Shown in pieces: positions 13,379 through 63,206 of a stretch of DNA of 64,000 bases (position 1 is the stretch's first letter; each line of letters begins with the position of its first letter). The DNA lies in contig NZ_JACHGY010000001.1 of NCBI RefSeq assembly GCF_014207595.1, positions 2,548,836-2,612,835 of the forward strand, given 5' to 3'. The notes beneath the pieces were generated by a model. The model saw nothing but the letters and a program-made list of their open reading frames with translations. It was not told the DNA's origin and made no database searches. Source of the stretch: Algisphaera agarilytica. Its GTDB lineage: Bacteria; Planctomycetota; Phycisphaerae; Phycisphaerales; Phycisphaeraceae. A program made the position numbers and the translations under genes.

Positions 13379-14435
13379 CGTCGGGCGGCGACTGACCCTT
13401 GGCTGCATAAGTTGCGCGGATTTTTGCGCGTTTCTCGGCGCGCAACCGGCTCGCCTCGTCCGGCCACTCGTATTCGATCTCGCCGGTCTCAGGATTGCGC
13501 CAGTCGGTGCTTGCCTGATCGTCACGATCGTCAAGGTCGTTGCGATCCGACTCGGGGCGGAGCTGCAGCTTGATGTCGCCACCGAAGTCGGCCTGAACGA
13601 CCTGGACGCGGCGTTGGCGGACGAGTTCGAGGGTCGCCAGGAACAGGCCGATCATCTCGCTGCGTGATTTGCGGCCGACGAAGATCTCGCGGAGCGTCAT
13701 GCCGTCGGTTCCGCCGTCGCGTTCGAGACGGTCGGCGATGTCGTCGGCGTGGAGGGAGATCGGGGTGTCGTCGTAGGTGACTTCGTGGTCGCCGGTGAAC
13801 CCGATGGCGTCGAGCATCCGGCCGAACGCGGCGCACAGGTCCATGACGTTCACGTCTTCAAGGTCGAGGTCCACCGGCTTGGCCGAGTCCTCGGCCTCGT
13901 CTTCCGGGCTGGCGGCTGGGGGCTTGGGCGTCTTGGCCACGGCGGGGAAGCGCACGTCCCATTCGCTGCGGCGCTGGTCGAGCGCCATCGAGGCGTCCTT
14001 GTACCGCTTGTAGGCCAGCAGCTGCTGGACGAGTTCGAAACGCGGGTCGACGTTGGCTTCTTCGGTGGGGTCTTCGCCCTCTTCGGTCTCGGCCTGGACC
14101 TGGGGCATGAGCAGGGCGCTCTTGATCTCGACGAGCGTCGCGGCCATCACCAGGAACTCGCCCGCCCGGTCCACGTCCATCGCCCCGGGCACCGCCTGGA
14201 TCACACGGAGGTGTTCGAGGTACTGCTCCGTAAGCTGAGCGATCGGAATGTCCTGGAGGTCGATCTCGTGGCGCTTGACCAGGTAGAGCAAGAGGTCCAA
14301 CGGCCCCGCGTAGGCGTCGAGCTGGACGCGGTAGTCGGTGGATTTCGGATTGGGGGTTTCGGATTTCGGAACTGCCGAAACACCGGGTTCTGGATCGGTC
14401 ATATCTCGCTCGTTGACGGAAAAAGGCAGGTTCAT
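13293..14435 (-). CDS. scpA: Segregation and condensation protein A
   Basis: The kleisin subunit that bridges SMC heads with ScpB in chromosome condensation. AYAGPLDLLLYLVKRHEIDLQDIPIAQL is characteristic of the N-terminal kleisin helices, followed by DVDRAGEFLVMAATLVEIKS. The winged-helix end (FVGRKSRSEMIGLFLATLEL) is near residue 270, followed by an acidic, Pro-rich tail; at 380 residues it is longer than typical ScpA (about 250). Residues about 23-32 (PKSETPNPKS) are encoded by a 30-bp heptamer repeat that is also translated at the start of the divergent kdsD. ATG 14435 is used; ATG 14402 is an alternative. Confidence 0.88.
   Translation of the reverse strand: MNLPFSVNERDMTDPEPGVSAVPKSETPNPKSTDYRVQLDAYAGPLDLLLYLVKRHEIDLQDIPIAQLTEQYLEHLRVIQAVPGAMDVDRAGEFLVMAATLVEIKSALLMPQVQAETEEGEDPTEEANVDPRFELVQQLLAYKRYKDASMALDQRRSEWDVRFPAVAKTPKPPAASPEDEAEDSAKPVDLDLEDVNVMDLCAAFGRMLDAIGFTGDHEVTYDDTPISLHADDIADRLERDGGTDGMTLREIFVGRKSRSEMIGLFLATLELVRQRRVQVVQADFGGDIKLQLRPESDRNDLDDRDDQASTDWRNPETGEIEYEWPDEASRLRAEKRAKIRATYAAKGQSPPDDADDIGDVPTPGKQADPGNEPDAEELDD
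14340..14369 (-). repeat. Heptamer array inside the 5' end of scpA (left arm of a 30-bp inverted repeat)
   Basis: Read on the minus strand the units are CCGAAAT, CCGAAAC, CCCCAAT, CCGAAAT, CC. It is the exact reverse complement of 14459-14488. Translated in the scpA frame it gives PKSETPNPKS. Confidence 0.9.
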
Positions 14436-14452: not shown

Positions 14453-15520
14453 ATGTCCCCGAAATCCGAAACCCCCAATCCGAAATCCGGCGAAACCGAC
14501 TACGCCGCATTTGCCCGCGAGGTGCTCAACGCCGAGGCCGACGCGATCCGCCGGATCGAGATCGGCCCGAGCTTCACCGCCGCGGTACAGCTGGTGCTCG
14601 ATGCGACGTCGGGCCCCTCGGCCGAGGCCCCGGGCGGCGGGAGCCTGGTCGTGTCGGGCCTGGGCAAGTCCGGGCTCATCGGCCAAAAACTCTCGGCCAC
14701 GTTCTCCAGCACCGGCACCCCGTCACACTTCCTTCACCCGGTCGAGGCGATGCACGGCGACCTCGGACGCATCCGCCGGGGCGACGCGGTCCTGCTGCTG
14801 TCCTTCGGCGGCAACACCGAAGAACTCGTGACCTTGGCGGAACTGCTCAAGCAAGACGGCGTGCCCATGATCGCGCTGACGAAAAACGACGGCCCCGGCA
14901 ACGGGCTCGCGCGACAGGCCACCGTCACGCTCCCGGTCGGCGACATCACCGAGGCCTGTCCTCACGAGCTCGCCCCGACCAGCAGCACCACCGCGATGCT
15001 GGCGTTGGGTGACGCCTTGGCCTTGGCTGTGAGCCGGGCCCGGCGGTTCACTGCGGACGATTTCCAGAAATTCCACCCCGGCGGCGGGCTCGGCCGGCAG
15101 CTCACGCCCGTGGTCGAGGCCATGCGTTTTGCCGCCGGTCAGAACCTGTCGCTGATCGACCTGGGTACGGTGGTGCAGGACGCCTACGCCTTGGCTGAGC
15201 AACACGCCAAAGACTCGGGCCTGCGTCGCCCCGGGGCGCTGCTGGTCGTACACCCCGACGGCACCCTCGCGGGCATCGTGACCGACGGCGACCTCCGCAC
15301 CGCCCTGATCCGCACCGGCCCCCAGGTCTGGTCCGAGCCGATCGACCAAATCATGACGTCCAGCCCCACGACGCTATCCGACACCGCACTCGTCCGCGAC
15401 GCGGTGCACATCGTGCGTGAAAAACGCTTCGACGAAATCCCTGTCGTGGCAGCCGACGGAAAGCCGGTGGGCTTGATCGACGTGCAGGACCTCGCGGCAC
15501 TGAAAGTGATTGAAGGCTGA
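14453..15520 (+). CDS. kdsD: Arabinose-5-phosphate isomerase (KpsF/GutQ type), Kdo pathway
   Basis: Interconverts ribulose 5-phosphate and arabinose 5-phosphate, the first step toward Kdo. The 355-residue protein has an N-terminal SIS domain (VVSGLGKSGLIGQKLSATF; HGDLGRIRRGDAVLLLSFGG) and two C-terminal CBS domains (about residues 215-350: ALLVVHPDGTLAGIVTDGDL, DEIPVVAADGKPVGLIDVQD). Residues 3-12 (PKSETPNPKS) come from the heptamer repeat shared with scpA. The gap to scpA is only 17 bp if both annotated starts are right, which leaves little room for promoters outside coding sequence. kdsC follows after a four-helix-bundle gene. Confidence 0.93.
   Translation: MSPKSETPNPKSGETDYAAFAREVLNAEADAIRRIEIGPSFTAAVQLVLDATSGPSAEAPGGGSLVVSGLGKSGLIGQKLSATFSSTGTPSHFLHPVEAMHGDLGRIRRGDAVLLLSFGGNTEELVTLAELLKQDGVPMIALTKNDGPGNGLARQATVTLPVGDITEACPHELAPTSSTTAMLALGDALALAVSRARRFTADDFQKFHPGGGLGRQLTPVVEAMRFAAGQNLSLIDLGTVVQDAYALAEQHAKDSGLRRPGALLVVHPDGTLAGIVTDGDLRTALIRTGPQVWSEPIDQIMTSSPTTLSDTALVRDAVHIVREKRFDEIPVVAADGKPVGLIDVQDLAALKVIEG
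14459..14488 (+). repeat. Heptamer array at the 5' end of kdsD (right arm of a 30-bp inverted repeat)
   Basis: CCGAAAT-CCGAAAC-CCCCAAT-CCGAAAT-CC, a perfect inverted copy of 14340-14369, in the kdsD frame as PKSETPNPKS directly after Met-Ser. Confidence 0.9.
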
Positions 15521-15557
15521 GTAGGGGTTGGGATTTCGGGGTTAGGTTTTGGGGGTA
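15521..15557 (-). repeat. Heptamer array upstream of the four-helix-bundle gene
   Basis: On the plus strand GGGGTTGGGATTTCGGGG continues with TTAGGTTTTGGGGGTA; read on the minus strand it is composed of CCCCAAA/CCTAACC/CCGAAAT/CCCAACC-like 7-mers. It fills the gap between the kdsD stop and the ATG at 15562, and its G-run lies where a Shine-Dalgarno would be. It is an imperfect inverted copy of 15937-15968. Confidence 0.8.
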
Positions 15558-15561
15558 ATGC

Positions 15562-15930
15562 ATGACGAGCGTGAAGTCTTACCAGGATCTGGAAGTTTGG
15601 CGTGAAAGCATCGATGTGGTTAAACGAACCTACGCTTTGGCGAGAACATTGCCGGAGATTGAGCGGTTTGCATTGGTAACTCAGATGCAACGCGCTGCAG
15701 TTTCCGTGCCCGCCAACATCGCCGAGGGATGGGCTCGCGACTCGACCAAGGAGTACCTCCGGCATCTGTCTATCGCTCGTGGCTCGCTGGCCGAGTTGGA
15801 GACATTTTTCGTACTCTGTATCGAGTTGGGATACAGTCAGGCAGATCGGTTGGTTGAATTGCAAGCCGATTCCGAAACGCTCGGCCGGCGACTTAACGCG
15901 CTGCAAGCCTCATTACGAAAGCATACTTAA
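15562..15930 (+). CDS. Four-helix-bundle protein (23S rRNA intervening-sequence protein family)
   Basis: A 122-residue all-helical protein with the family signatures YQDLEVWRESIDVVKRTYALA, QMQRAAVSVPANIAEGWARD and KEYLRHLSIARGSLAELE. The family was first found in intervening sequences of 23S rRNA genes and is related in fold to Avd of diversity-generating retroelements; its own function is unresolved, though basic members bind nucleic acid. Here it sits alone between kdsD and kdsC, flanked on both sides by inverted heptamer arrays. Its stop overlaps the kdsC start (TAATG). The interruption of a Kdo gene pair suggests insertion. Confidence 0.9.
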   Translation: MTSVKSYQDLEVWRESIDVVKRTYALARTLPEIERFALVTQMQRAAVSVPANIAEGWARDSTKEYLRHLSIARGSLAELETFFVLCIELGYSQADRLVELQADSETLGRRLNALQASLRKHT

Positions 15931-16463
15931 TGGCTTCCCCCAACCCCCAACCCCCAAATCCCAACTCCGTCCGTCTCCTGGTCTTCGATGTTGACGGAGT
16001 TCTCACCGACGGCGCGATCACGTACCACCGTGAAGGTGGGGAGTCGAAGAACTTCCACACCAAAGACGGCTTGGGCTTGCGGGCAGCGATGCAGTCGGGG
16101 GTGAAGGTTGCGATCATCACGGCCCGCCAGAGCGACATCGTCGCCCGGCGGATGAGTGAGCTGGGCATCCAGGACGTGGTGCAGGGCTGCAAGGACAAAG
16201 CGAAAGAGGTGGCTCGCCTGGCTGATGCGTTGGGCGTGGCTTTGGAACACACCGCCTACCTTGGTGACGATCTGGTCGACCTGCCCGCGATGCAGAAGGT
16301 GGGCTACCCCATGGCCGTGGCCGACGCCGCGGCGGAGCTATGTGAGATGGCTGCTTTCGTGACCCAGCTCCCCGGCGGGCGTGGTGCGGCCCGTGAAGCG
16401 GTCGAGCACGTCCTCAAGGCGCAGGGCAAATGGGACGCGATCGTCGCGGGCTACCGCGGCTGA
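15930..16463 (+). CDS. kdsC: 3-deoxy-D-manno-octulosonate 8-phosphate phosphatase
   Basis: A HAD-superfamily phosphatase releasing Kdo from Kdo-8-phosphate. The 177-residue protein has LVFDVDGVLTDGAI (nucleophile Asp 20, Asp 22), IITARQSDIVARR with the Thr of motif II, and the motif III/IV region KDKAKEV with YLGDDLVDLPAM. The C1-type short form is typical of KdsC tetramers. The first 13 residues (MASPNPQPPNPNS) are encoded by the second heptamer array and are not family-like; the conserved domain starts at SVRLLVFD. The start overlaps the upstream stop codon, suggesting translational coupling. Confidence 0.94.
   Translation: MASPNPQPPNPNSVRLLVFDVDGVLTDGAITYHREGGESKNFHTKDGLGLRAAMQSGVKVAIITARQSDIVARRMSELGIQDVVQGCKDKAKEVARLADALGVALEHTAYLGDDLVDLPAMQKVGYPMAVADAAAELCEMAAFVTQLPGGRGAAREAVEHVLKAQGKWDAIVAGYRG
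15937..15968 (+). repeat. Heptamer array in the 5' end of kdsC
   Basis: CCCCCAA repeated three times, then ATCCCAA and CTCC: period 7. It is the inverted partner of 15521-15557 and is translated as NPQPPNPNS in KdsC. Confidence 0.85.
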
Positions 16464-47693: not shown

Positions 47694-47784
47694 TTCAAAC
47701 TCCAAACAGGGGGTATAGGGGGTGGGGATGGATCACGTTGCCTGCGACTTGGGGGACCGGACGCGGGCGGGCCGGGGTTGGTTC

Positions 47785-47820
47785 ATTTGGCGATTGTGTG
47801 ATTGGGTGATTTGGTAATTG
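47785..47820 (+). repeat. Octamer array A1 in the atpE-atpB gap
   Basis: Units ATTTGGCG, ATTGTGTG, ATTGGGTG, ATTTGGTA, ATTG: period 8. It faces array A2 (47875-47914) in inverted orientation across 54 bp. Confidence 0.85.
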
Positions 47821-58757: not shown

Positions 58758-58780
58758 AGTCGAGCAAGAGTGATATTTTT

Positions 58781-58844
58781 GTAGGGTGGGCACCGCCCAC
58801 CACCCCAAATCTCAATTGAACGCGGTGGGCGGTGCCCACCCTAC
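58781..58844. repeat. GTAGGGTGGGC-type palindrome pair (inverted)
   Basis: Left arm 58781-58801 and right arm 58824-58844 are perfect 21-bp inverted copies around a 22-bp AT-richer centre, and each arm is itself palindromic (GGTGGGC...GCCCACC). Same family as 7772-7792. Confidence 0.85.
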
Positions 58845-58847
58845 GAA

Positions 58848-58892
58848 AGAAACCCCGTGTGCGTGACGAGGGTGACTCGCCGCGCACACGGG
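58848..58892 (-). terminator. Terminator after the lipoprotein sulfatase gene
   Basis: On the minus strand CCCGTGTGCG, an inner CGAG-CTCG stem, then CGCACACGGG followed by GTTTCTTTC. Long 10-bp outer stem 30 bp past the sulfatase stop. Confidence 0.75.
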
Positions 58893-63152: not shown

Positions 63153-63206
63153 CTCCCCACTCCCCACTCCCCACTCCCCACTCCCTACTCCCTACTCCCT
63201 ACTCCC
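63153..63206 (+). repeat. Heptamer tandem array upstream of the M29 aminopeptidase
   Basis: Four CTCCCCA units, three CTCCCTA units and a partial CTCCC: period 7, no spacer. It ends 20 bp before the ATG at 63226, in the place of a leader. Confidence 0.92.

Follow-up and report, generated by a model that had tools for sequence, protein, structure and literature searches.

The intervening sequences (IVSs) of 23S rRNA in Coxiella, Leptospira, and Salmonella carry an open reading frame (ORF) of the S23p/IVP protein family. The origin and role of the 23S IVSs and of the IVP protein have remained open for decades. The IVS of Coxiella is closed by terminal repeats that form a 28-bp stem, within which RNase III cuts, and its 5′ arm contains tandem GACAGAT heptamers located beside the start of the ORF and at the RNase III cut (PMC4990558). 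The mobility of 23S IVSs by transposition is, according to the authors of that study, only a hypothesis, and the IVP protein of Xanthomonas is a homopentamer (PMC4990558). REP/REPIN–RAYT systems are composed of dispersed inverted short units, which are commoner where a resident gene flanked by them exists; the flanked gene encodes a Y1 (IS200/IS605-type) transposase. The fold-back (FB) transposons of eukaryotes have inverted termini built from short tandem repeats. Heptamer repeats have also been described from bacteria: GGGAATC heptamers of Xanthomonas form 70–75 inverted convergent pairs per genome, the repeats of Nostoc have the sequence GGGGA(C/T)T, and that description reports generally no association of these repeats with mobile elements (PMC4692102). 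The TAACTGA heptamers of Beggiatoaceae represent another orphan case (PMC4679880).

The window analyzed here is a stretch of 64,000 nucleotides from the genome of Algisphaera agarilytica. Inserted between two genes of the Kdo pathway, it contains a gene of the IVP family that is enclosed by inverted heptamer arrays. The components of the locus are as follows:
14453–15520, plus strand: kdsD, KpsF/GutQ-family arabinose-5-phosphate isomerase, the upstream host gene (TIGR00393, 241.8 bits, cut-off 203.7)
15524–15555, plus strand: left arm, inverted heptamer array of the GGGGTTN type (inverted-repeat scan, TRF, RNA fold)
15551–15555, plus strand: G-run within the left arm in the Shine-Dalgarno position, 6 nt 5′ of the IVP ATG (sequence)
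15562–15930, plus strand: IVP, 23S-rRNA-intervening-sequence-type four-helix-bundle protein of 122 amino acids (PF05635, TIGR02436)
15937–15968, minus strand: right arm, inverted heptamer array (CCCCCAA...; inverted-repeat scan, TRF, RNA fold)
15930–16463, plus strand: kdsC, KDO-8-phosphate phosphatase of the YrbI family, the downstream host gene (TIGR01670, 147.5 bits, cut-off 106.95)

In profile searches, the ORF at 15562–15930 scores 114.8 bits against PF05635 (cut-off 33.8) and 110.4 bits against TIGR02436 (23S-IVP; cut-off 24), and its neighbors are of the kdsD and kdsC types, in agreement with the initial annotation, which had placed an IVP-type four-helix-bundle gene within a Kdo gene pair. 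The left arm starts just 3′ of the kdsD stop codon, with its G-rich strand oriented towards the IVP gene, and the stop codon of IVP and the start codon of kdsC overlap in the sequence TAATG. The complementarity of the inverted arms is 84% over 32 nt, close to the approximately 85% over 33 bp that had been estimated by eye for arrays on both sides of the gene, and TRF reports a period of 14 at 15524–15556 and a period of 7 at 15937–15965. The arm score, 39, lies above those of all 20 shuffles (maximum 22) and above 29, which 99% of the mismatched pairings of flanks from 72 IVP loci do not exceed. Two further readings of the initial annotation also stand, namely that the left array supplies the G-run near the Shine-Dalgarno position and that the right array encodes the N-terminus of kdsC, which is the in-frame translation of the array, MASPNPQPPNPNS. 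Array codons can form or lengthen the ends of proteins (kdsD, kdsC, and argE), which calls for caution in annotation.

In the predicted fold of the window cassette, the arms constitute the closing stem with 28 pairs (z = −5.1), similar to the terminal complementary sequences of about 28 bp that close IVSs. The protein family, the organization as a one-ORF element of ~430–450 nt, and the terminal inverted repeats with a stem of ~28 bp are shared with 23S IVSs. By contrast, the window element is positioned between protein-coding cistrons, kdsD and kdsC, and not in 23S rRNA, both of its arms are heptamer arrays with a copy-specific unit, and gene-less array hairpins are scattered through the genome. 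Because the ORF family and the terminal stem are those of an IVS but the location in 23S rRNA is not, the element is IVS-related, yet a variant. The termini of the window element resemble those of FB transposons in being inverted short tandem repeats; however, there is no homology between the two, the arms of the window element are ~30 bp long, and its cargo is a single IVP gene.

The 4.17-Mb source genome contains five PF05635 genes, four of which are framed by inverted arrays with a different unit in each: GTGATGA/GTGACGA, GGCGCTA/GGGGTTA, the GGGGTTN type of the window copy, and the 8-mers TTTAGCGA/TTTGGTGA. The fifth, divergent copy (L004) has no arrays. The framing of IVP genes in general was evaluated by aligning the 250 bp upstream of each gene with the reverse complement of the 250 bp downstream, and a common arm-score threshold of 29 was used for the counts. 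Inverted matching arms above the 99th-percentile score for mismatched flanks are present at 55 of the 72 IVP loci of the source genome and its relatives, which carry up to 10 IVP copies per genome. The threshold is also exceeded by 28 of 30 IVP genes from a Xanthomonadaceae-type family and by 56 of 79 from a scan of many phyla (Clostridia, Chloroflexi, Proteobacteria, Bacteroidetes, Acidobacteria, Gemmatimonadetes, an archaeal contig, and others), the latter set having been picked by likeness to a conserved motif and not randomly. Among the controls, the threshold is exceeded by none of 27 kdsC genes and by 4 of 422 ORFs (2/240 random and 2/182 neighboring), and no control locus has arms with a period of 7 or 8. 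Arrays at four of the five copies in the source genome and at about three quarters of those elsewhere bear out the expectation that other members of the family would be flanked in the same manner.

Of 110 framed copies, 93 have arms with a best period of 7 and 14 have arms with a best period of 8; the median arm length is 31.5 nt, and the G-rich strand points inward, towards the gene, in 99 of the 110. The repeat unit varies from copy to copy, while the two arms of one copy match. The order of units is shared between arms weakly, with 12 of 88 copies above the 95% level, and strict copying of the unit order from arm to arm was rejected. The role of the left arm as a source of the Shine-Dalgarno sequence holds in the window but in only 19 of 99 copies elsewhere, and the 7/8-mer size of the units is not explained by stop codons in all frames, as only 38 of 110 left arms, compared with 27 of 110 right arms, stop all three frames. 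Approximately one quarter of IVP genes, for example L004, L030, L101, L103, L114, and L117, lack detectable arms. All examined IVP copies are armless in the lineages represented by L030 and L101 (G031), L114 (G007), and L117 and L123 (G036); these lineages may have been domesticated or may use another terminus.

In 105 of 110 minimum-energy folds, half or more of the left arm is paired with the right arm, so that computation predicts a closing stem in RNA for nearly all framed copies. The IVP protein is under purifying selection (dN/dS 0.07–0.22), and the structures of two relatives have been solved: 2GSC, which is XCC0516 of Xanthomonas campestris, and 2RLD. The only profile matches of the window IVP are to IVP-type families and, weakly, to Avd, and none is to a transposase domain. 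The flanked gene is thus different from the Y1 transposase of REPIN/RAYT systems; Y1 genes are present in the order without a clear tie to IVP. The view that a Y1 transposase or a reverse transcriptase is a required partner of IVP was rejected, since the correlations are of modest size, genome size is a confounder, and there are clear exceptions. Carriage by phages was also rejected, as there is no IVP match in 50,697 phage records.

Reading of the flanks places the cassettes in sense at the joints of conserved operons, the genes of which were named from motifs in their sequences and from what is known of the proteins rather than by a family search of each. The junctions are nuoC|nuoD in three alphaproteobacterial genera; carA|carB in Ramlibacter, Pseudoxanthomonas, and a Rhodanobacter-type genome; sdhA|sdhB in seven Bacteroidetes; accB|accC in 10 of 30 in the Xanthomonadaceae-type family; secD|secF; and kdsD|kdsC, which holds an IVP gene in four Phycisphaeraceae-type genomes (G000, G010, G016, and G053). 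Both neighbors are co-directional at 46 of 70 loci. The accB|accC junction of 15 genomes from one Rhodanobacter-type genus is a short array-free spacer without IVP in ten, contains IVP with inverted GGGATTC arms in three, an array-only GGGACTC hairpin in one, and is unreadable in one. At accB|accC, a target-site duplication cannot be seen, but empty and filled sites there also differ in the sequence of the intergenic spacer as such. The kdsD|kdsC junctions of the congeners G001 and G002 contain array-only hairpins whose units are not those of the window copy, and in G014, G017, and G044 this junction lacks both IVP and array. Each of the two junctions therefore exhibits filled, array-only, and array-free states, which answers the question of empty sites raised by the initial annotation, and the co-occurrence of filled and empty sites in relatives is a feature of classical insertion sequences and MITEs. 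These site states indicate that the arrays and the gene are gained or lost together. The proposal of a mobile cassette with repeat termini is well supported on the evolutionary scale by the site states and by the framing of other copies. Beyond that proposal are the copy-specific unit, the common array-only hairpins, and the similarly framed GxxExxY family described below.

IVP proteins encoded at one junction in related genera are 50–69% identical. The units of such orthologous genes can differ, yet the arms of each match, and the arms are therefore renewed in concert. The use of the same junction within a family might also result from old insertions and many losses. Among 30 genomes of the Pseudoxanthomonas genus, one locus (L284) has a cassette at carA|carB as far as the anchors resolve the junction, the carB anchor being missing in most of the others.

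Array-only hairpins are also present in the window:
14340–14369, plus strand: left arm of a hairpin between scpA and kdsD, GGATTTC/GGATTGG heptamers, 30 bp, perfect inverted pair
14459–14488, minus strand: right arm, within the N-terminal codons of kdsD, perfect 30-bp pair with 14340–14369
47782–47811, plus strand: left arm of a hairpin with 8-mer units like those in the arms of the IVP copy L005
47883–47912, minus strand: right arm, partner of 47782–47811

The genes scpA and kdsD are divergent, and the arm at 14340–14369 falls within the N-terminal codons of ScpA as called. Separately, positions 63153–63206 form one continuous array of CTCCCCA heptamers (7.7 copies, 97% matching), for which the inverted-repeat scan finds no nearby inverted partner.

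Inverted pairs of 7/8-mer arrays are associated with IVP genes: four IVP-bearing genomes contain 25 pairs in 864 kb (29/Mb, including the window cassette), and five IVP-free genomes of the order contain none in 400 kb (p = 1e-4; the nine genomes were partly sampled). The number of IVP genes increases with genome size. The units of the hairpins resemble the IVP arms of the same genome (444) more than those of other genomes (278 ± 22), and none of 2000 resamples is as high. Dispersed hairpins that share the unit of the resident flanked gene are reminiscent of REP/REPIN–RAYT, although the correspondence is partial, with 7 of 18 hairpins individually significant.

In genome G072, the pattern GGGAHTC has 249 matches, and the IVP copy at carA|carB has exact GGGACTC arms. 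The pattern occurs 38, 26, and 12 times in three other IVP-bearing genomes of the same genus and 6 and 11 times in two more, and is absent from nine of 15 congeners, among which is G084, whose IVP gene has a different unit. The paired arms of G072 are mostly exactly 30 bp long, most of the loops between them show no relationship to the IVP gene or to the other loops, and solitary arrays are present as well. In an argE-like gene (L377, G072:C1:86000–87300), two inverted 30-bp GGGACTC arrays are in frame, read RDSGLGTRDSG ... RVPSPESRVP, and flank 418 bp of the gene. The unrelated loops, the argE pair, and the solitary arrays suggest that the arms may spread on their own, apart from the cassette. 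Another region (L378, G072:C10:21100–24600) holds, in 3 kb, four homologous array hairpins whose loops are 71 nt long and which represent the amplification of one hairpin in place. The ends of the array-only hairpin L257 are similar to those of L266 (p = 0.001) and L261 (p = 0.0025), but the other four comparisons are not significant; with most end comparisons negative and the G072 loops otherwise unrelated, the origin of L257 by simple deletion of an IVP cassette was rejected.

The best model of these loci, which we regard as probable though by no means secure, is a transcribed IVS-like element that lies in sense between cistrons, has a stem of ~30 bp, and gives rise to REP-like array derivatives. 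Such an element is ~450 bp long and consists of one IVP (PF05635) gene inside a hairpin of inverted arrays, with about four 7-mers, or sometimes 8-mers, in each arm, and it usually occupies, in sense orientation, the joint between successive cistrons of one operon, which in the window are kdsD and kdsC. After transcription into polycistronic RNA, the arms would pair into a closing stem similar to that of the terminal inverted repeats of 23S IVSs. The Coxiella-like anatomy suggests that RNase III could then cut the IVP segment out of the mRNA, and the excision would limit the harm to the host operon. The arrays are acquired or lost with the gene, and genomes with IVP also hold dispersed array-only hairpins with related units, as REP/REPIN do with RAYT. 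REPIN/RAYT is invoked as an analogy: a transposase domain is lacking in IVP, and the hairpins consist of tandem 7/8-mers of varying sequence and not of a fixed REP. By this analogy, the IVP protein is probably a factor that maintains or spreads the arrays, and we infer that the elements move and that IVP acts on the arrays.

A broader generalization, to which we give somewhat less than an even chance, is that IVP genes constitute an unrecognized trans-phylum class of mobile elements with termini of inverted 7/8-mer arrays. The protein would act on the array structure and not on a fixed sequence, so each element could have its own unit, the arms would be renewed together, and gene-less hairpins would multiply in trans. 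The 23S IVSs would be those members whose insertion site was in rRNA, and a large number of orphan heptamer repeats, including GGGAATC of Xanthomonas, would be non-autonomous offspring. The IVP arms in Xanthomonadaceae use GGGAATC, GGGACTC, and GGGATTC; by contrast, the available part of the published description of the Xanthomonas repeats does not mention an IVP gene (PMC4692102), and the link to IVP is new here. Full-text searches of the open-license literature did not find a published connection between IVP genes and arrays, and the feature, which is real and widespread, has apparently not been described as a class. The findings would tie together three orphans: rRNA intervening sequences, “hypothetical” genes encoding four-helix bundles, and bacterial heptamer repeats. 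The units are natural tags, which makes mobility directly testable.

Other explanations account for part of these observations. The arrays could be REP- or SSR-like hairpins of host intergenic regions that originate and spread alone and serve as targets, not termini, with IVP genes inserting preferentially into their loops. The insertion of 23S intervening sequences within rRNA helices is a precedent for this, array-only hairpins and solitary arrays are common, the G072 arms surround host sequence that includes the interior of argE, and heptamer repeats have been published without a link to IVP (PMC4692102, PMC4679880). We consider this explanation unlikely, because the IVP-less sites in the Rhodanobacter-type genus are mostly array-free, IVP-free genomes of the order lack inverted 7/8-mer pairs in the 400 kb covered, and the array units match those of resident IVP copies. 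A different possibility is that the cassettes are vertically inherited resident operon genes with regulatory stem-loops that function in RNA processing or translational control, in which the arrays arose by slippage, complementarity was selected, and nothing moves. The purifying selection on IVP, the strong predicted closing stem, the translational overlap TAATG in the window, and the 50–69% identity of IVPs at the same junction in related genera are compatible with such genes. Patchy presence within a genus, different junctions within one genome, copy numbers of as many as 10 in a genome, the array-only states, and the dispersed copies make them distinctly improbable.

It is more improbable still that the loci are retro-elements, the RNA of which would be excised by RNase III, bound by an Avd-like IVP pentamer, copied by a reverse transcriptase acting in trans, and reinserted. 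The sense placement in transcribed operons, the similarity to Avd (NF033474, 23.7 bits), and the correlation of IVP and RVT_1 counts (rho 0.35) point in this direction; however, the Avd match is far below the equivalog cut-off of 80, the presence of RVT_1 is not significantly associated with IVP (p = 0.17), both counts scale with genome size, and no RVT_1 was detected in G045 or G053, which have seven and five IVP genes, respectively. In addition, the reverse transcriptase that is adjacent to Avd in diversity-generating retroelements (DGRs) has no equivalent at the window locus, the nearest RVT_1 being ~124 kb away (G000:C1:2439486 versus IVP at 2564418). Viewed by themselves, the arms in the window are short and rich in G/C and might be taken for low-complexity G-runs that flank an unrelated small gene by chance, but the probability of this is negligible given the control counts, the mismatched-pair null, and the matching of arms copy by copy although the units differ between copies, which refutes it.

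The IVS-like elements are not the only repeat-armed genes of the source genome. The sole other gene-sized enclosures in the 464 kb of sampled stretches used as background are GxxExxY/PDDEXK_3 genes with inverted arms of CACGGAG and TCGGAT units:
L076:15491–15986, source genome: GxxExxY/PDDEXK_3 gene with inverted arms
L077:8112–8556, source genome: GxxExxY/PDDEXK_3 gene with inverted arms

Matching inverted arms are present at 23 of 29 GxxExxY genes (TIGR04256/PF13366) in relatives, where the units are CACAGAG-like with a spacing of 8–10 nt. The GxxExxY cassettes resemble those of IVP in that a single small gene is enclosed by inverted short-repeat arms, and they occur in genomes with IVP cassettes. 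They differ in the CACAGAG-like unit and in the fold of the protein, which belongs to a nuclease superfamily and is not a four-helix bundle. The source genome also contains recurrent REP-like palindromes that are distinct from heptamer arrays, with the sequences GTAGGGTGGGCACCGCCCACC, GTAGGTCAGGC...GCCTGAC, and TTAGCCCCGGG..., at window positions 58777–58848, L066:17256–17321, L067:14791–14859, L079:3073–3150, and other sites.
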